Shown here: piece by piece, positions 28,856 through 59,296 of the stretch
Numbering within the stretch: position 1 is the first letter of the stretch
How the letters are laid out: each line of letters starts with the position of its first letter
Origin: Bacteroidales bacterium
Lineage (GTDB): Bacteria; Bacteroidota; Bacteroidia; Bacteroidales; UBA932
Reading direction: 5' to 3'
NCBI GenBank assembly: GCA_024402135.1
Contig: JAKSJN010000002.1
Location: 124,001-188,000 of the forward strand
DNA length: 64,000 nucleotides
Position numbers and translations under genes: made by a program
The notes under the pieces: generated by a model
The model's database searches: none
Seen by the model: the letters and a program-made list of their open reading frames with translations, nothing else
Told to the model about the DNA's origin: nothing

Positions 28856-29557
28856 ATGACAATAGAGCCAATTGCATATTTCAAGTCTCCTTTTACCAGC
28901 AAGTTCGGCATTCCACGCCAGAGTGGACTGCTGGAAAACCTGCGTGGAGAGATTCATCTATGCGGGCCTTATGCGACAGCAGATGCCCTCCGTGGCATGG
29001 AAGACTTCGACAGGCTGTGGCTCATATGGGAATTCTCTGCCAATCATGAGAATACCGGCGAAAGATTCCGCCCGCTCATCCGTCCGCCACGCCTGGGTGG
29101 CAACGCTACGGTAGGTGTCTTTGCCAGCCGTTCTCCCTTCCGTCCAAACCGGCTCGGACTTTCTTGTGTAAGACTGGACAGGGTTGATATCAGCAACCCT
29201 GGACATCCGGTCATACATGTACTTGGCGCTGACCTTATGGATGGCACTCCAATCTACGACATCAAGCCATACATCCCATACGCAGATGCCTTCCCGGATG
29301 CTTCGGGAGGATTTACGGACAAGTCTGGATGGAAAGCATTGGAAGTCATTGTTCCGCAATCCCTCGCAGACAGACTGAAAGAAAAGCTTGGAGAAGATGA
29401 TTTCCAGGCTCTTCTCCAAGCTTTGTCTATGGACCCCAGGCCACGTACCCAGAACGACCCCGACAAGGTCTATGGTCTCCCCTTCCGCAATCTGGACATT
29501 CACTTCAGTGTCTGCGAAGACAGTTTGACCATTCTGGATTTCACTGGTACTTTCTGA
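28856..29557 (+). CDS. trmO: tRNA (N6-threonylcarbamoyladenosine(37)-N6)-methyltransferase TrmO
   Basis: 233 residues. UPF0066/TsaA family hallmarks: IAYFKSPFTSKFGIPRQ, FDRLWLIWEFSAN, RPPRLGGNATVGVFASRSPFRPNRLGLSCVRL and the GADLMDGTPIYDIKPYIPYAD string. TrmO methylates t6A37 of tRNA-Thr(GGU) using SAM with a beta-barrel fold. The C-terminal extension with DPRPRTQNDPDKVYGLPF is typical. Its last 17 bases overlap the convergent M14-like gene end, with no terminator between. Confidence 0.93.
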   Translation: MTIEPIAYFKSPFTSKFGIPRQSGLLENLRGEIHLCGPYATADALRGMEDFDRLWLIWEFSANHENTGERFRPLIRPPRLGGNATVGVFASRSPFRPNRLGLSCVRLDRVDISNPGHPVIHVLGADLMDGTPIYDIKPYIPYADAFPDASGGFTDKSGWKALEVIVPQSLADRLKEKLGEDDFQALLQALSMDPRPRTQNDPDKVYGLPFRNLDIHFSVCEDSLTILDFTGTF

Positions 29558-30479
29558 TCATGAATATCGGAGTGTGAAGGAGTGTAAGAGGTTTGCCGAG
29601 CAAGTGGAATACTACTCCGTCACATGGCGACGCAATCTCCGACCTTACCGAACCGTCATATGGATCTATTATCCTGGCTATGATTTCTCCCTTGGAGACT
29701 TCATGTCCAGGGGAACAGAGGTTCTGGAAGATTCCCGCAGCAGGAGAATTGATTGTGACGAGATCCTGGTCATCAAGAACGATGGTGTTGAATGAAGGAC
29801 GGTTCGCCCCTGACGCAAAATCAGCGATTCCGACGTTGACAATGAAGCGCATGATTGCGTTTACAGGCACCTGGCAAGCCTCCGGAGACACGTCATTGTT
29901 CTTTCCTGCATAGATTGAACATGCTTTGGTATCCCAGATCTGCCAGTTGTAATTGAGCGTGGTTGTATCGAAAGGCTTCGGTGCTCTGACATACACATAA
30001 GGAAGGCCGAAAAGCTTCGCAGTTTCCACATCTTCAAAACCTGTCTTGAGAAGCCTGACGTGAGGCATGAATTCTCCTGTCTGATAGGAGCTGGCCAATT
30101 GAATTCCGTACTTATAGTCCTTGATCGCCTCGAAGACTCCTGATGCAATTCTCTGCGTGGTCTCACCAAGGTCGTACCCAGGGAACATCCTGTTGATGTC
30201 AGTTCCATCGAGAGCCCAGAACCTTTTCTCTACGTTCATGGAGAATGGGTTTGCCGAAGGTATGACAAGGATTTCCTGGCCAGGAGCAATCATGCCGTCC
30301 CTTTCCATCGACTCAAGCTTCGAGACCAGCTGGGCGCATACGAACTGCTGATGAACCTCGTCTCCTCTCATGGCTCCGACAATTGCAAGTGTCTTCTCAC
30401 CGATGCCGAAGCGGTATCCCCATATCCTGAATGTATCGCGGTATGGGGACTCCATACTGAATATTATTTCCTTTCTCAT
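29541..30479 (-). CDS. M14/AstE-AspA-like protein lacking zinc ligands (probable pseudoenzyme)
   Basis: 312 residues, start overlapping the previous stop (ATGA). Paralogue of the 30476-31405 protein: shared VIPSANPF/ALNPMG-type strand, D-INRMFPG substrate motif, and a C-terminal barrel (INSPAAGIFQNL, IARIIDPYDGSV, SPCDGVVFHL). The catalytic site is gone: the HxxE motif reads R38-G-D-E41 (AMRGDEVHQ), the second zinc His is replaced (GIQLASSYQ against VIDIHSSN next door), and the catalytic Glu position reads SIYAG against VVELG. Asn-Arg of the substrate motif remain. Probably binds a related ligand or regulates the active partner. The reading frame is intact, so it is not decaying. Confidence 0.82.
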   Translation of the reverse strand: MRKEIIFSMESPYRDTFRIWGYRFGIGEKTLAIVGAMRGDEVHQQFVCAQLVSKLESMERDGMIAPGQEILVIPSANPFSMNVEKRFWALDGTDINRMFPGYDLGETTQRIASGVFEAIKDYKYGIQLASSYQTGEFMPHVRLLKTGFEDVETAKLFGLPYVYVRAPKPFDTTTLNYNWQIWDTKACSIYAGKNNDVSPEACQVPVNAIMRFIVNVGIADFASGANRPSFNTIVLDDQDLVTINSPAAGIFQNLCSPGHEVSKGEIIARIIDPYDGSVRSEIASPCDGVVFHLLGKPLTLLHTPIFMIRKYQ

Positions 30480-31405
30480 ACCAATCTATGGATTCTGGCG
30501 AGCAAAGAGCCCTCGTAGCAGACAGGGTATGCCCTGATTGTGAACAGATAGCCTCTGCAAGGCGCCTTGACGTCCTCGATGACAGCTCCGGAGAGCGGAT
30601 CGATGATCTGGCCTAGAGAATCTCCTTCTTCCACAATGGATTCATTATGGGTTTCAGTAGAGAAGATTCCCGATGCCGGAGCATTCACGAAACTGACTGA
30701 ATCTCCCTGGGATACGATAGGTTCAACAATTCTGGATGAATCCACCTGTCCCTTCCACATTCCCATTTCTTTCATCAGGTTCTTGATTCCAAGAACCATG
30801 TTCTTTCCATAGTAGTGGTTGATTCTCATTCCAACTCCAAGCTCCACGACAATCGTTGGCGTACCTCTGCTGTTCAGCGAGTGGGCCAAGGTTGCCTCCA
30901 GCACGGTTGCAGCGTCATGAACCCATATGAAATTCACATTCATATGCCTGGCGTATGGCACAAGGGTTTCAGCTGTCATGACGTTGATCCTGGCCTGAGG
31001 GACTTCCCTGAGGAAAATATTGCTGGAATGGATGTCAATGACGAGATCGGCGCCGCTCAGGTCAGCCACTATCGCAGCCGCTGTCTGTTCCGCAACGGTA
31101 CCTTCCGGATTACCCGGGAAGATGCGGTTCATATCCAGGTCGAAATTCGGGATTCCTCGCGTAATCGAATCGATGCCCATAGGATTCAGGGCAGGATATA
31201 CCTCGACAGTACCATCGAGCATATCTATCTCTTCGAGTATTTCCTTCTGCAGCTGGAAACAGATGAACTGTCCTTCCAGCTCGTCTCCGTGAGTTCCGGT
31301 GACAATGCAGATTCTTTTCTTTCCGCTGCCGTTGGTGATGGTATTCTTCTTTATGGAGAACTGCTCATCGACCGGCAGATCGGTTTCAAATATTGTCTTT
31401 ATCAT
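30476..31405 (-). CDS. M14 family zinc deacylase/amidohydrolase, AstE/AspA-like (apparently active)
   Basis: 309 residues. Family of succinylglutamate desuccinylases and aspartoacylases, which release amino acids from N-acyl forms. Zinc ligands His39 and Glu42 in GTHGDELEG, the later His in DLVIDIHSSN, and catalytic Glu in PTIVVELGVG are present, as is NRIFPGNP for the substrate carboxylate. The C-terminal 75 residues form the usual small beta-barrel (VNAPASGIFSTET, LGQIIDPLSGAVIEDVKAPCRGYLF). No signal peptide, so cytosolic. ATGA overlaps on both sides tie it to the transglutaminase-like gene and the pseudoenzyme gene. Natural substrate unknown. Confidence 0.87.
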   Translation of the reverse strand: MIKTIFETDLPVDEQFSIKKNTITNGSGKKRICIVTGTHGDELEGQFICFQLQKEILEEIDMLDGTVEVYPALNPMGIDSITRGIPNFDLDMNRIFPGNPEGTVAEQTAAAIVADLSGADLVIDIHSSNIFLREVPQARINVMTAETLVPYARHMNVNFIWVHDAATVLEATLAHSLNSRGTPTIVVELGVGMRINHYYGKNMVLGIKNLMKEMGMWKGQVDSSRIVEPIVSQGDSVSFVNAPASGIFSTETHNESIVEEGDSLGQIIDPLSGAVIEDVKAPCRGYLFTIRAYPVCYEGSLLARIHRLV

Positions 31406-32175
31406 TGTTCTGATTGTTCAACAGATGAGATAGTCGTAGTATTTTGGGCTGAACAGCCTTTGAAAAGCCCCCTCACGACAGGACAGTCGCCGGCATCACG
31501 TCCTTTTGCAATAGCGATGTACCTGTCGTCACAGACCTTGCCGGCCGTTGGATCCAGACCGTACCATGAGCCTTCCGACCAGACTTCGACCCAGGCATGG
31601 GTCTCGCCTTCCCCAGGTATCATGCCGCATACATATCTGGCTGGAATTCCTGACGCACGGCATGCCGATATCATTATATGAGCATAGTCTTGGCATACTC
31701 CTTTTCGCAGGCGGAATGCCTGGGCAGCAGTAGTTTCTGCCGATGTCACATTCTTCGTATAGGACATCTCAGTCTTGACACGTGACGATATCTCCAATGC
31801 CCTCTCGAACGGAGTTCCATCTGTTTTAGGACTTAGGCAAGCCATTGCCGGATCATGGACAGTCATCCTGGAATCCATATAGAACAAAGCTGAAGGAGAC
31901 TCGTCGGCAATAGGATAAGGAGCAACCTCTACCGTTCCTTCACTGATGTATGAGAATGAGTCATGGGCTGCAGCCTGAAAACCATAGTCTATCCTGGAGC
32001 CCCAGCAATCGCGTCCACTGGAAAGTGAGTCTGGCTGTGGAACTATCCTCAGACTCGAGTCAAGCAGAGTCTGGCGGGCATCCTCCAGCGGGAAGGACCT
32101 TAACAGGAAGCTATGGTCCTTCACCGGATTGGAGAAGTCAGTCCTGGACTCGAATCTGTACCTGAATACTTGCAT
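31402..32175 (-). CDS. Transglutaminase-like cysteine peptidase of the ATP-grasp/alpha-E system
   Basis: 257 residues. N-terminal beta-rich domain (about 1-90) as in COG1305 proteins, then the papain-like transglutaminase core with an intact triad: Cys161 in RKGVCQDYAHIMI, His193 in ETHAWVEVW, Asp208 in GLDPTAG. No signal peptide. Proteins of this type are repeatedly linked with COG2308 ATP-grasp and alpha-E proteins; Iyer, Aravind and colleagues proposed that such sets make and cleave peptide-like amide bonds. One base separates it from the alpha-E stop, and its own stop overlaps the M14 start. Likely a hydrolase or amide-transfer enzyme of this pathway. Confidence 0.88.
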   Translation of the reverse strand: MQVFRYRFESRTDFSNPVKDHSFLLRSFPLEDARQTLLDSSLRIVPQPDSLSSGRDCWGSRIDYGFQAAAHDSFSYISEGTVEVAPYPIADESPSALFYMDSRMTVHDPAMACLSPKTDGTPFERALEISSRVKTEMSYTKNVTSAETTAAQAFRLRKGVCQDYAHIMISACRASGIPARYVCGMIPGEGETHAWVEVWSEGSWYGLDPTAGKVCDDRYIAIAKGRDAGDCPVVRGLFKGCSAQNTTTISSVEQSEQ

Positions 32176-32176
32176 G

Positions 32177-32878
32177 CTACAAAACTACAGCATTTCCGAC
32201 CAGATACAATAACTTGTTCTTGTATTCAGTACCTCCGTCTGTGTATTTTTCTTCAGTCAGCATTTCCCTGAGCTCATCAGTCACCTCGTCATTGAATGCC
32301 CTTGGTTCCTCTGCCTTGCAGTGTCCCAGAGCCTTGAAGGCCTCCTCTATGCGGTAGAACTTGTAATCAAAACGGACATTCATGTCGATATGCTCAATGA
32401 GCTTGCCTATCTTCAGGATGGTCCTTACCCTGTCATCATAGACTCTTTCCTCGATCGAGCCCCAGAATGCGAGCATCCAGTCCGTCAGGGTCTGGAGTTC
32501 ATCGACATTCGGTTCGATTCCATTCTTTGCATTCTGTCTGAGCAGTTCCAGAGGCATCTGGATGTATCCCAGGGTAGGACTTTTGATCTCGTCACGGAGC
32601 AGGACCGCGTTGTCGTTACATCTTTCAACACTGCTGATGACCGATGCCGGATTGGAAAGGTCATGTACCAGTCCGTTGATTACCGACGCCTGGTCAGGAT
32701 ATCGGGACACTCCGCCGATTGCAGAAAGGTATTTTCCATACTCCTGCGGATCACCGTCAATCATCTTGTCGAAGCAGAGTCTGAGGAGGTGCAGTTCCAG
32801 ATAGACACGCTCTGTATATCGTCCCAGCCAGTACAGGCTGTTTGCCTTCGATGGGGAAAGGATTGTACTTGTCTTCAT
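32177..32878 (-). CDS. Alpha-E domain protein (COG2307/DUF403)
   Basis: 233 residues from the ATG at 32878 (MKTSTILSPSKANSLYWLGRYTERVY); a longer reading to 32998 overlaps the ATP-grasp gene and lacks family resemblance. The almost all-helical alpha-E family is recognised by ANSLYWLGRYTERVY near the start and IKSPTLGYIQMPLELLRQ, WGSIEERVYDD and GKLIEHIDM later. Alpha-E proteins almost always accompany circularly permuted ATP-grasp enzymes and are thought to be partner or catalytic subunits in amide-bond formation, which has not been shown experimentally to my knowledge. 17 bases after the ATP-grasp stop. Confidence 0.88.
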   Translation of the reverse strand: MKTSTILSPSKANSLYWLGRYTERVYLELHLLRLCFDKMIDGDPQEYGKYLSAIGGVSRYPDQASVINGLVHDLSNPASVISSVERCNDNAVLLRDEIKSPTLGYIQMPLELLRQNAKNGIEPNVDELQTLTDWMLAFWGSIEERVYDDRVRTILKIGKLIEHIDMNVRFDYKFYRIEEAFKALGHCKAEEPRAFNDEVTDELREMLTEEKYTDGGTEYKNKLLYLVGNAVVL

Positions 32879-32895
32879 ATTTTGTTCAGTTCGTT

Positions 32896-34227
32896 TTATA
32901 CGTTCATGATCCATGTATCCTTGAATCCGCCACCCTGGCTGGAATTCACCACAAATGAGGCAGGATTCCTTGAGAAGCGGGTAAGGCCGCTCTTCCATAC
33001 CCTCACTCCCCCATTGTCCCCGGAGCCACCGGATACAACGAAGGCTCTGAGGTCGGCCTTTCTCCAGACTTTCTCCTCTCCTTCAATAATCTCGAGATCC
33101 TTGAAATCGATGACTTCCTGGGCAATCCACCTTCTTGGCTGCTCTACTATGAGCGACTTGAGCTCTTCCAGCTTCTCAGGGGTAAGGTCACGGCCAAAGA
33201 CCACACCATAGCCGCCGGCCTCGCTCACGTCCTTGATGACGAGTTTGCCGATATTGGCCAGGATGTAGTCGTAATCCTCTTTGTAATATGGGAGATAGGT
33301 CGGTGCGTTATGAAGGATAGGCTCTTCGCCAAGGTAGTACTTCACCATCTTTGGTACGAAGTAATAGATACCCTTGTCATCTGCGACGCCGTTGCCGAAA
33401 CCGTTGATTACGGCTACGTTGCCTTTCTTGTAGGCCTGGAAAAGATTAGGAACTCCGAGGAGTGATGATGCCTCGAAGGCAAGAGGGTCAAGATACTCGT
33501 CGCTCACTCTCCTGTAGATTGCACCGACACGGACTTTTTCCTTGTAGAGTCCTGTATACCAGACGATGTCGTCCTCCACGGTCATGTCACCAGGAAAAGC
33601 CAGAACGGCTCCGGTCTTCTCAGCCAGATAGGAATGCTCGAAAAATGCTGAATTGTATCGGCCAGGTGTAAGGATGACATTTATGCCACGGCCCGCATTC
33701 ATCGTATCCATCATATCCTTGAGAATCTCAGGGTAATCTCTGTTGTCGGCTATGCTGTTGTCGATGAAGGTGGTTGGCGATACCTTTCTGGTAATCTCCC
33801 TGGCTATCATCGGATAGGATGCACCCGACGGAATCCTGAGATTATCCTCCAGTATGAACCAGTTGCCGTCCTTGCCCTCTACCAGGTCGATGCCACTGAT
33901 GTGGGAGTAGACTTTCCCGACAGGATCGATACCTTCGCATTCAGGCATGTAGCCCTTGGATGAATAGACGAACTCTTCGGGAACGATTCCGTCCTTGATG
34001 ATGGACTTGTCATGATAGATATCCCAGAGAAATGCATTGAGTGCCTTCACTCTTTGTACAAGTCCTTTTTCGAGAATGTCCCAGTCTTTTCTGGGAATAA
34101 CTCTGGGAATTGAGTCAAAAGGGAAGAACTGTTCGTTGAAGATACCGTTCTTGTAGACTCCGAATCTCACGCCATACCGCTCCAACCAGCGGTTGACAGA
34201 ATCTCTGCTTTCAATAAGTGTCTGCAT
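32896..34227 (-). CDS. Circularly permuted ATP-grasp protein (COG2308), probable amide ligase
   Basis: 443 residues from the ATG at 34227. I chose this over 34266 because it lies 40 bases past the attenuator T-run, as in the two sister attenuators (37 and 42), and 34266 would start at the last T of that run. Family motifs: PFDSIPRVIPRKDWDILEKGLVQRV, ALNAFLWDIYHDKSII, ILEDNLRIPSGASYP, ILTPGRYNSAFFEH, VINGFGNGVADDKGIYYFVPKM and the late KLVIKDVSEAGGYGVVFG. The N-terminus is shorter than usual for COG2308. ATP-grasp enzymes activate a carboxylate as acyl-phosphate and join it to an amine. First structural gene of a five-gene operon; substrate unknown. Confidence 0.85.
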   Translation of the reverse strand: MQTLIESRDSVNRWLERYGVRFGVYKNGIFNEQFFPFDSIPRVIPRKDWDILEKGLVQRVKALNAFLWDIYHDKSIIKDGIVPEEFVYSSKGYMPECEGIDPVGKVYSHISGIDLVEGKDGNWFILEDNLRIPSGASYPMIAREITRKVSPTTFIDNSIADNRDYPEILKDMMDTMNAGRGINVILTPGRYNSAFFEHSYLAEKTGAVLAFPGDMTVEDDIVWYTGLYKEKVRVGAIYRRVSDEYLDPLAFEASSLLGVPNLFQAYKKGNVAVINGFGNGVADDKGIYYFVPKMVKYYLGEEPILHNAPTYLPYYKEDYDYILANIGKLVIKDVSEAGGYGVVFGRDLTPEKLEELKSLIVEQPRRWIAQEVIDFKDLEIIEGEEKVWRKADLRAFVVSGGSGDNGGVRVWKSGLTRFSRNPASFVVNSSQGGGFKDTWIMNV

Positions 34228-34266: not shown

Positions 34267-34299
34267 AAAAAAAGACCGGACTCTTTCAAGCCCGGCCTT
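34267..34299 (-). terminator. Attenuator terminator ahead of the ATP-grasp operon
   Basis: On the minus strand, 10-bp stem (34290-34299 with 34272-34281, two G-U wobbles), 8-base loop, then seven T. It lies between a Gln/Asn-rich leader ORF and the first structural gene, so it can only act as an attenuator of the operon. GCCCG in the leader (34344-34348) is complementary to CGGGC of its 5' arm. Confidence 0.8.
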
Positions 34300-34334
34300 A
34301 CTGTACCTGTATTTTCGTTTTGTCCGTTTATCTT

Positions 34335-34427
34335 CTACTCCGTCGGGCAAGAGCAAAACAAAGACCTCAGCGCATTATTATTACGCTGATTATTATTATT
34401 CTGCTGATTGTTTCTTACCGACATCAT
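34335..34427 (-). CDS. Gln/Asn-rich leader peptide of the ATP-grasp operon
   Basis: 30 codons from ATG 34427 (a second ATG follows at 34424), ending in TAG. 12 of 30 residues are Asn or Gln, including NNQQNNNNQR then NNNALR. Residues 9-13 are QNNNN, at the same positions as in the leaders at 52203-52325 and 59225-59296. The Asn codons are almost all AAT. The ORF ends 36 bases before an intrinsic terminator. Nothing suggests a functional protein; the arrangement is that of a transcription-attenuation leader sensing Gln and/or Asn tRNA charging, which is inference. Confidence 0.75.
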   Translation of the reverse strand: MMSVRNNQQNNNNQRNNNALRSLFCSCPTE

Positions 34428-34432
34428 TACTG

Positions 34433-34463
34433 CAATGATAGATATTTGAACTAAAAAAACAAA
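34433..34463 (-). promoter_or_regulatory. Candidate promoter of the ATP-grasp operon
   Basis: Minus strand TTTG (34460-34463), 19-base spacer, TATCATTG (34433-34440), one mismatch to TAnnTTTG. The sequence downstream (ATTGCA) resembles the glnN promoter. Caveat: the leader ATG is only 5 bases past the box, so the message would be nearly leaderless unless the second ATG or another promoter is used. Confidence 0.45.
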
Positions 34464-34492: not shown

Positions 34493-35710
<1,218 letters not shown>

Positions 35711-51002: not shown

Positions 51003-51707
51003 TTAAAATGCTGAAATTGTAAGGCCGAACACCAGATGTGCCGTTCCTATGCCTGGATTGGTACAGATTCCTGCGAACACAGGAATCGAGAATGAGTCTG
51101 AAACTGAAATCTCCTTGAATGCCATTACTGAAGCGTTCACAATGGAGAAGCCATCCTCGGAACCAGCGTAGAAATCAGTAGCATAAGGGACAGCACCAAG
51201 AGAGGCCGTGAAATCGACTCCTCCGAGCTGGAATGGAACTCCGACCTCGAAGTAGGAAGAATAAGCCATCTTCCCTGATGGGTTGAGACCGTCTGCTCCA
51301 CCTATGTTAGTGTACCAGGAAAGTGAGGCAAAACCGAAATCATATCCTACATAGGCTTCGAACACATGTGGAGTCGTGTCTGCCTTGTAGAGGAAGTATC
51401 TGTCTTCGTCAAACCAGTAATCTGTGATTCCGAGGCTGAGACCTTCATACTCATATCCGAGTGTAAGGTCAAGTTCACGTGAATCTGAAGGTTCCGACAG
51501 GCCTACACTGCCCCATGCTGAAAGGGAAATGCCTTTGTAAGAGATTCCAAGAGTCGGCTGGAGCGACGCCTTGCCGAGTTCCTGTCCTCGCCAGATATAC
51601 TGGCTGACGATGTCGGCGGATATCGCAGTTTCAACCGTGTCCTGCGCTTTCATGCCAAGCGGCATTGCAGCAGCAATAATCAATGCTGTAATACGGGTCT
51701 TTCTCAT
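51003..51707 (-). CDS. Outer-membrane beta-barrel protein in the P-II/Amt operon
   Basis: 234 residues, signal peptide ending PLGMKAQ. The remainder is alternating amphipathic strands ending in an aromatic (LTISAF), with DIVSQYIWRGQELGKASLQPTLGISYKG near the start, the pattern of TorF/TIGR02001-type putative porins. About 10-12 strands. Lying between glnB and amt with gaps of 36 and 37 bases, it may be an outer-membrane channel for ammonium or small nitrogen compounds; that role is inferred from context only. Confidence 0.72.
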   Translation of the reverse strand: MRKTRITALIIAAAMPLGMKAQDTVETAISADIVSQYIWRGQELGKASLQPTLGISYKGISLSAWGSVGLSEPSDSRELDLTLGYEYEGLSLGITDYWFDEDRYFLYKADTTPHVFEAYVGYDFGFASLSWYTNIGGADGLNPSGKMAYSSYFEVGVPFQLGGVDFTASLGAVPYATDFYAGSEDGFSIVNASVMAFKEISVSDSFSIPVFAGICTNPGIGTAHLVFGLTISAF

Positions 51708-52132: not shown

Positions 52133-52166
52133 AAAAAAAGGCCGGTCCCTTGTATGGGACCGGCCT
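52133..52166 (-). terminator. Attenuator terminator ahead of the P-II/amt operon
   Basis: Perfect 11-bp stem (52139-52149 with 52156-52166), 6-base loop, then T-run on the minus strand. The leader ORF holds GGACCGG (within 52221-52229), complementary to CCGGTCC in the terminator 5' arm, a possible antiterminator pairing. Confidence 0.88.
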
Positions 52167-52202
52167 CGTGTATCATCTATACTTTCAGATTTACTTCCTG
52201 CC

Positions 52203-52325
52203 TTATTTCAGTCTATCCTTGACCGGTCCACATGTCAGCTTGATCAGAGCCTGATTATTATTAACCTGGTTCTGATTATTATTAGAATTATTATTATTCT
52301 GCTGATATGTGCGGTAAGAGGTCAT
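52203..52325 (-). CDS. Gln/Asn-rich leader peptide of the P-II/amt operon
   Basis: 40 codons, ATG at 52325, TAA at 52203. 16 of 40 residues are Asn or Gln: QQNNNN at 8-13, then NNNQNQ, then NNNQALI. The QNNNN at residues 9-13 and the closing (Q/N)AL(I/R) are shared with the two other leaders. The stop lies 36 bases before the terminator. No function expected for the peptide itself. A short TACATTG box at 52356-52362 may be its promoter. Confidence 0.78.
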   Translation of the reverse strand: MTSYRTYQQNNNNSNNNQNQVNNNQALIKLTCGPVKDRLK

Positions 52326-59138: not shown

Positions 59139-59171
59139 AAAAAAAAGAGGCTGATCCTTCGACCAGCCTCT
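59139..59171 (-). terminator. Attenuator terminator ahead of glnN
   Basis: Minus strand AGAGGCTGGTC, 4-base loop GAAG, GATCAGCCTCT (one G-U pair), then eight T; 59146-59171 plus T-run to 59139. ACCAGC in the leader codons and CCAGC after the leader stop can both pair with GCTGG of its 5' arm. Confidence 0.9.
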
Positions 59172-59224
59172 CTGTTATCAAGTGCTCTAATCTTCTTTTT
59201 TATCCGTTTACCTTGCTGGATAGG

Positions 59225-59296
59225 TTACACAGAAAAGATCAGAGCCTGCTGGTTCTGATTATTATTATTCTGCTTGTTATTAAGGAAGGTAAACAT
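59225..59296 (-). CDS. Gln/Asn-rich leader peptide of glnN
   Basis: 23 codons, ATG 59296, TAA 59225. 11 of 23 residues are Asn or Gln: NNKQ, NNNN, QNQQ, then ALI. QNNNN occupies residues 9-13 as in the two sister leaders. GTTTACCTT just inside the ATG (59286-59294) is perfectly complementary to AAGGTAAAC 70 bases downstream (59206-59214), which would enclose the codon run in a long-range pairing. Stop codon is 53 bases before the terminator. A transcription-attenuation leader is the best explanation. Confidence 0.82.
   Translation of the reverse strand: MFTFLNNKQNNNNQNQQALIFSV

Follow-up and report, generated by a model that had tools for sequence, protein, structure and literature searches.

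In the 64,000-nucleotide stretch of DNA analysed here (the window), an uncharacterised five-gene operon headed by a COG2308-like ATP-grasp ligase is preceded by a short open reading frame rich in Asn and Gln codons and by an intrinsic terminator, and the same arrangement stands before the GSIII and P-II/Amt operons of the same genome. Attenuation at these leaders is likely, and we consider it quite probable that they are ribosome-mediated attenuators that read charged tRNA-Asn and tRNA-Gln and make up a small nitrogen-limitation regulon of the gut-dwelling genus Candidatus Cryptobacteroides. Since the operon, which encodes COG2308, Alpha-E, transglutaminase-like and paired AspA-family proteins, would lie under the control of such a leader, it probably serves nitrogen scavenging or sparing. 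Shared control with GSIII and P-II/Amt is, in itself, no proof of a shared pathway. The source genus was assigned from named relatives, namely: C. caccocaballi (90%) and C. onthequi (86%), whose loci recur as same-genus genomes in the genus search.

On the minus strand, the putative -7 box, the leader, the terminator and the five genes follow one another in this order:

34433..34440, minus strand: putative Bacteroidota -7 box TATCATTG, read from the sequence and Bacteroidota-like
34335..34427, minus strand: Asn/Gln leader peptide MMSVRNNQQNNNNQRNNNALRSLFCSCPTE, 30 codons, ATGATG...TAG, read from the sequence, the shuffles and the comparison with locus L052
34272..34299, minus strand: intrinsic terminator stem, 12 bp, -18.7 kcal/mol, z -4.2
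32896..34227, minus strand: circularly permuted ATP-grasp (COG2308-like) ligase, PF14403 at 1e-132, nearest solved structure 3n6x
32177..32998, minus strand: Alpha-E protein, PF04168 at 9e-21, coordinates counted from the first ATG, though the gene may begin further downstream
31402..32175, minus strand: transglutaminase-like protein, PF01841 at 4e-24 and PF08379, with C161, H193 and D208 invariant
30476..31405, minus strand: AspA1, an AstE/AspA-family metal hydrolase, PF24827 at 9e-25, with HGDE...H126...E188 intact
29541..30479, minus strand: AspA2, an AstE/AspA paralogue, PF24827 at 3e-13, with RGDE and QLAS and two motif histidines missing

An earlier note on this DNA had described a 30-codon leader with QNNNN at codons 9-13, an NNNALR motif and a seven-T terminator before the COG2308 operon, and it was correct in all these details. 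NNNALR occupies codons 16-21 of MMSVRNNQQNNNNQRNNNALRSLFCSCPTE, the densest 15 codons of which hold 12 Asn/Gln, and the first two T of the seven-T run are also the last two bases of the stem (34299-34272, minus strand). The leader stop codon is separated from the stem by a 35-nt spacer on the minus strand, and the start of the first gene was taken as 34227 (minus strand). Two hallmarks of peptide-leader attenuators are present: a short ORF rich in the sensed codons, and an intrinsic terminator between the leader and the first gene. Rfam covariance models, run on the window at gathering thresholds, returned one tRNA only and no T-box or other described leader.

The leader ATG lies 5 nt downstream of TATCATTG, which was called a -7 box by what we take to be the Bacteroidota consensus, and from the box to the ATG the window and L052, a 98%-identical sister locus, agree at 13/13 bases. 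The mRNA of this leader may thus be nearly leaderless. At the COG2308 leaders of the window (34428-34440), L050 and L054, the ATG stands about 4-6 nt past the putative -7 box; in the window, some 20-30 nt separate the two at the leaders of GSIII and P-II.

The earlier note had also placed the same device before the GSIII and P-II/Amt operons, and this held for both, each leader having its own terminator:

52203..52325, minus strand: second Asn/Gln leader, before P-II, the gene at 51003, Amt and AsnB
52138..52167, minus strand: terminator stem of the second leader, -26.5 kcal/mol
59225..59296, minus strand: third Asn/Gln leader, before GSIII and glutamate synthase (gltB)
59144..59173, minus strand: terminator stem of the third leader, -21.6 kcal/mol

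Such units are not expected by chance. Three short ORFs of the window reach a density of 8 or more Asn/Gln in 15 codons, each followed by a terminator, while 40 dinucleotide shuffles of the window gave a mean of 0.025 such ORFs, with a terminator in 0/40. Across the whole 2.6-Mb genome, which is 98.1% complete, 59 sites match the pattern AAYAAYAAYMAN and 43 match its backward control, and inspection of the 59 contexts found a short Asn/Gln-rich ORF with a terminator only for 7 matches, all inside the three leaders. In this pattern search, which is blind to leaders that lack three consecutive Asn, an Asn-run leader with a terminator occurs in three places only: before GSIII, before P-II/Amt/AsnB and before the COG2308 operon. 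The AAYAAYAAYMAN matches at C34:8421/8424 were rejected as leaders, both being within a long coding frame. A fourth exact match to CAGAAYAAYAAYAAY in the genome (L004) was taken as chance; it begins a long coding frame that looks Wzz-like by eye. An order-wide search with CARAAYAAYAAYAAY was dropped as noise, given matches in 118 of 149 genomes and a backward control that matched frequently as well. The second GSIII paralogue of the same genome (G000:C1:229259-231352, 53% identical) has no Asn/Gln leader.

The stem at 34299-34272 might merely terminate the upstream esterase gene (34493-35686), with the Asn/Gln ORF being incidental. The esterase gene shares the strand of the stem, which lies about 190 nt past the end of the gene; the same gene order is found in L052, and a distant esterase-like gene (31% identity, covering part of the protein) is located upstream in L050. 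However, at L054 an amidohydrolase gene lies upstream of the leader and stem, with no esterase match, and a leader with a terminator also precedes GSIII and P-II. An incidental ORF is further opposed by the shuffles, none of which produced such a unit, and by conservation: the leader ORF is identical to that of L052 at 91/93 positions (97.8%), compared to 101/130 (77.7%) in the flanking non-coding stretches (Fisher p 7e-6). We thus regard this explanation as very improbable.

The Asn/Gln leader device is largely confined to Cryptobacteroides, and it is not universal there. GSIII is matched in 56 of 61 genomes of the genus, and 13 of the 30 best-scoring loci (two of them with little upstream DNA) have both an Asn/Gln leader and a stem, the T tracts being poor in some of them. 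For P-II, matched in 19 of the 61 genomes, the leader is found at 7/19 loci. In the family set, one of 28 GSIII loci has the leader with a terminator (L254, from another genus); one of the 28 is of the same genus and has none. A leader with a terminator was found at 0/28 P-II loci of the order set. Among the named species, the GSIII of C. onthequi (L294) has a leader and a stem with a weak T tract, and the second GSIII of C. caccocaballi (L295) has no leader.

The ATP-grasp gene itself is rare, being present in 4/200 genus, 1/149 family and 11/295 order genomes. Five Cryptobacteroides-type loci were found (L050 came from the genus search; L049 repeats L053 and L051 repeats L054), and all five are tied to an Asn/Gln leader, the window and L052 being near-identical. 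Four of them have their own leader and stem, namely: the window, L052, L054/L051 and L050. In the fifth, L053/L049 of C. caccocaballi, the order is leader, terminator, GSIII, asnB and operon, such that the operon follows GSIII and asnB (gaps of 76 and 42 bp) behind the GSIII leader MFKTVSYSLILKNKNNQNQNNNQNQQALTFVVHIRPSTI. The GSIII-asnB gap of this locus (L053:4027-12690) also has a GC hairpin of 9 bp, lacking a good T tract, which may limit read-through. The COG2308 leaders diverge in sequence (RNNQQNNNNQRNNN, RNNNNNQQQGNQN and RRNNNNNNQQQGNQN) and keep the Asn/Gln run; T tracts are weak at L050 and L054.

A scan of named genomes, in which the best 80 of at least 582 relatives were kept, reached beyond Bacteroidales into Clostridia and Desulfovibrionaceae. 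ORF calling recovered the complete five-gene set at 58 of the 80 loci kept, and the other 22 include contig-end cuts and genes hidden by a longer antisense frame in ORF picking (as in L052). ATP-grasp relatives of 65-72% identity occur in MAGs labelled Mailhella/Desulfovibrionaceae and Clostridia (L105, L106, L119, L120 and L122-L131), reflecting either horizontal transfer among gut anaerobes or mis-binned contigs. At L118:7953-9314 the ATP-grasp reads as two adjacent pieces of 98 and 352 aa, either a broken gene or a sequence error.

The leader had been expected before COG2308 operons across Bacteroidales, its absence from orthologous operons being named as evidence against the proposal, and this expectation was not borne out. 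With a threshold of at least 9 Asn/Gln in 15 codons, no upstream leader was found at any of the 77 loci outside the Cryptobacteroides group (L055-L131, from the best 80 of at least 582); the largest value was 8, at L104, without a terminator, and six of the 77 (L056, L057, L093, L113, L119 and L122) have under 300 nt upstream. The leader was likewise found at 0/7 order-level loci (L036-L042; the fragments L043-L048 are outside this count). The absence thus holds outside the genus and not within Cryptobacteroides, and absence before the 77 other relatives points to a lineage-specific capture. In the gene tree, the five Cryptobacteroides-type rows form one clade (100/98) with L055 as sister, which has no leader and a GC content of 45.6% as opposed to 50-54%; the only GSIII match in the L055 genome is 51% identical and also without a leader. 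This topology suggests that the COG2308 operon probably gained its leader on or after entry into Cryptobacteroides.

In order to look for an antiterminator, 23 distinct leaders (13 GSIII, 7 P-II and 3 COG2308) were examined for pairing between the segment past the Asn/Gln run and the terminator 5′ arm. Against shuffles, the mean z is -1.08, with p<0.05 in 5/23. Pairing with the leader's own terminator arm is stronger than with swapped arms (mean -15.1 vs. -13.6 kcal/mol; 5000 permutations, p 0.001, which is optimistic given the kinship among the 23 leaders). Partner segments change together: several GSIII leaders have CCAGCC:GGCTGG, P-II leaders have CCGGTC:GACCGG, and L053 has ACGGCCT:AGGCCGT. 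In 20/23 leaders the start of the best core falls in the stretch from 45 nt ahead of the stop codon to 20 nt past it; in 13/23 it falls between -20 and +12, a range that a terminating ribosome would occupy. The window has one such segment before the COG2308 operon:

34344..34348, minus strand: GCCCG, a candidate antiterminator segment lying within the leader ORF; its complement CGGGC belongs to the 5′ arm of the terminator, making a weak pairing of 5 bp

For this leader the own arm ranks 1 of 21 (p 0.29 vs. shuffles), and for the COG2308 leaders L050 and L054 it ranks 11 and 6 of 21 (p 0.59 each). Antiterminator pairing is thus supported over the 23 leaders together and weak in the COG2308 copies.

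These elements suggest how the leaders could work. When amide amino acids are plentiful, the ribosome would cross the Asn/Gln codons and reach the stop codon, where it would mask the nearby segment, leaving the terminator free to form and the operon switched off. Under nitrogen shortage, the ribosome would stall early in the Asn/Gln run, and the freed segment could pair as an antiterminator with the terminator 5′ arm, letting the polymerase read into the operon. The fit between the sensed amino acid and the controlled pathway is clear for the GSIII/gltB and P-II/Amt/AsnB operons. The leaders might instead act via Rho, a translational coupling switch or an RNA-binding protein, the signal still being nitrogen, as the modest antiterminator pairing in the COG2308 copies and the weak T tracts in two of them would allow; the Asn/Gln codon runs, the stem before the gene and the arm-specific pairing across the set fit attenuation, and we consider these other routes unlikely. 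That the Asn/Gln-rich peptides are functional small proteins is less likely still, and hardly credible to us: the ORF is conserved between close relatives, but peptides of the same gene vary in sequence and length beyond the Asn/Gln run, and each of the 23 leaders, over all three operon types, is followed by a stem.

Independent gene context makes the link of the COG2308 operon to nitrogen well supported. Among the 80 best loci, Amt is the commonest non-core neighbour cluster (9 by clustering, 10 with the split gene in L075), and a PF00909 check of neighbouring Amt gave 6/6 matches. Compared to the 10 of 80 loci observed, 0.18 would be expected by chance in the flanks, on the basis of ~0.8 matches per genome over 60 order genomes, assuming a genome size of 3.4 Mb and with 735 kb of flanking DNA; the genomes of this set of 60 that carry the operon (G000, G002, G018 and G055) have 1-2 Amt each, and an expectation of 0.3-0.4 may be fairer. 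By eye, the nine Amt loci on the tree (L067 was left out) fall in four or five places (L095; L089; L058/L061; L082; L075/L080/L083/L084), and the tree's Amt-label count of 1 change compares labelled rows only and is no test of independence. In the Prevotella-type loci L075, L080, L082, L083 and L084, only 10-76 bp separate the end of Amt from the ATP-grasp gene downstream. Other nitrogen-related neighbours are gltB (L068), GSIII/gltB (L094) and P-II (L095). None of the Amt genes adjoining the operon in other genera is preceded by an Asn/Gln leader.

Published work also ties the ATP-grasp/Alpha-E/transglutaminase cluster to nitrogen. In B. cenocepacia, I35_5080-5083 (DUF404/407, DUF403 and two transglutaminase-like proteins) are NtrC/sigma54-dependent and 6.0- to 9.4-fold lower in an ntrC mutant (PMC5491218). 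Anbu is raised in nitrogen-limited P. putida and is encoded with the ATP-grasp/Alpha-E/transglutaminase trio in other bacteria (PMC5666114, PMC6376114), and abundances in marine metagenomes tie these domains to urea metabolism (PMC3597751). In view of the Burkholderia and Pseudomonas reports, the nitrogen connection of the gene cluster was already known in Proteobacteria; what is added here is the operon with two AspA-family proteins and a probable attenuator. The membership in a nitrogen-limitation response proposed by the earlier note is strengthened by the Amt, GSIII and asnB neighbours in relatives and by the NtrC dependence in Burkholderia; conservation of the leader across Bacteroidales is not supported.

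As for the enzymes, we favour a role in which amide or amino nitrogen would be freed from, or recycled out of, a small conjugate or peptide. The product suggested by the earlier note, an amide-linked polymer or an N-acyl amino acid, is one possibility. AspA1 has the HxxE...H metal motif, with H39, E42 and H126 invariant at ≥97% over 61 rows and lined up with solved relatives. Its nearest solved chains are AstE/AspA-type proteins and its best NCBIfam model is DoeB, far below the cut-off. In AspA2 the motif is absent, reading R38-G-D-E41 and missing the second-place His. R38 and E41 are invariant at ≥97% over 64 rows, and AspA2 is kept beside an intact AspA1 in the window and in relatives. Since both motif histidines are lost and the replacement R38 is invariant, AspA2 is probably a conserved, non-catalytic partner.

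In some relatives the end of the operon is overlapped by a gene for Peptidase C26 (L104:12682-13395) or a class-I glutamine amidotransferase (L068:12659-13384, with a relative at L073:12659-13384), a hint of gamma-glutamyl or glutamine chemistry. Such overlaps, and the N-acyl deacylase-like proteins that come nearest to AspA1 (with scores far short of the family cut-off), would suit a different reason for co-control, compatible with the attenuator, e.g. turnover of a gamma-glutamyl or amide conjugate that accumulates when glutamine synthetase is induced. The Amt genes directly upstream in the Prevotella-type loci and the NtrC dependence reported for Burkholderia (PMC5491218) fit scavenging at least equally, and we hold conjugate turnover to be possible, though somewhat doubtful.

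On a broader view, to which we give even chances, the nitrogen regulon of Cryptobacteroides would consist of Asn/Gln-codon attenuators and not of one transcription factor, and new operons would join it via a leader of their own or behind a leader-GSIII unit. The COG2308 operon would be such a recruit, itself a nitrogen-starvation system across distant phyla. No Asn/Gln leader attenuator in Bacteroidota was found in the literature searched, and no Rfam model matches the leader at gathering threshold. An attenuator reading Asn/Gln, if true, would extend a classic device to a new specificity and offer a means of nitrogen sensing without NtrC, and nitrogen limitation would be a testable physiological role for the widespread ligase/Alpha-E/transglutaminase system. 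That unrelated devices, NtrC in Burkholderia and an attenuator here, would place it under one condition is more telling than homology alone.

Like the peptide-leader attenuators of the trp, his, leu and ilv type, the units described here have a short ORF with runs of the relevant codons and an intrinsic terminator before the first gene, the antiterminator here being only a candidate. Unlike them, they present Asn and Gln codons and stand before nitrogen-assimilation genes and an uncharacterised operon. In Bacteroidota, the candidate attenuator Bacteroid-trp would work via Trp codons. Rfam lists it as RF01692, and it has a table entry in PMC2864571. The cyanobacterial glnA and Downstream-peptide RNAs (RF01739 and RF01704), neither of which has a match in the window, are riboswitch candidates with a conserved fold, unlike the leaders here. 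The Anbu operon, the expression of which is nitrogen-linked (PMC5666114, PMC6376114, PMC5491218), shares its first three genes (ATP-grasp, Alpha-E and transglutaminase) and their order with the window operon. The proteasome-like Anbu subunit is absent from the window operon, which has two AstE/AspA-family proteins in its place, one of them without the metal-motif histidines. Finally, the control device differs: an attenuator, as proposed here, for the window operon, and NtrC/sigma54 for the Burkholderia genes (PMC5491218).
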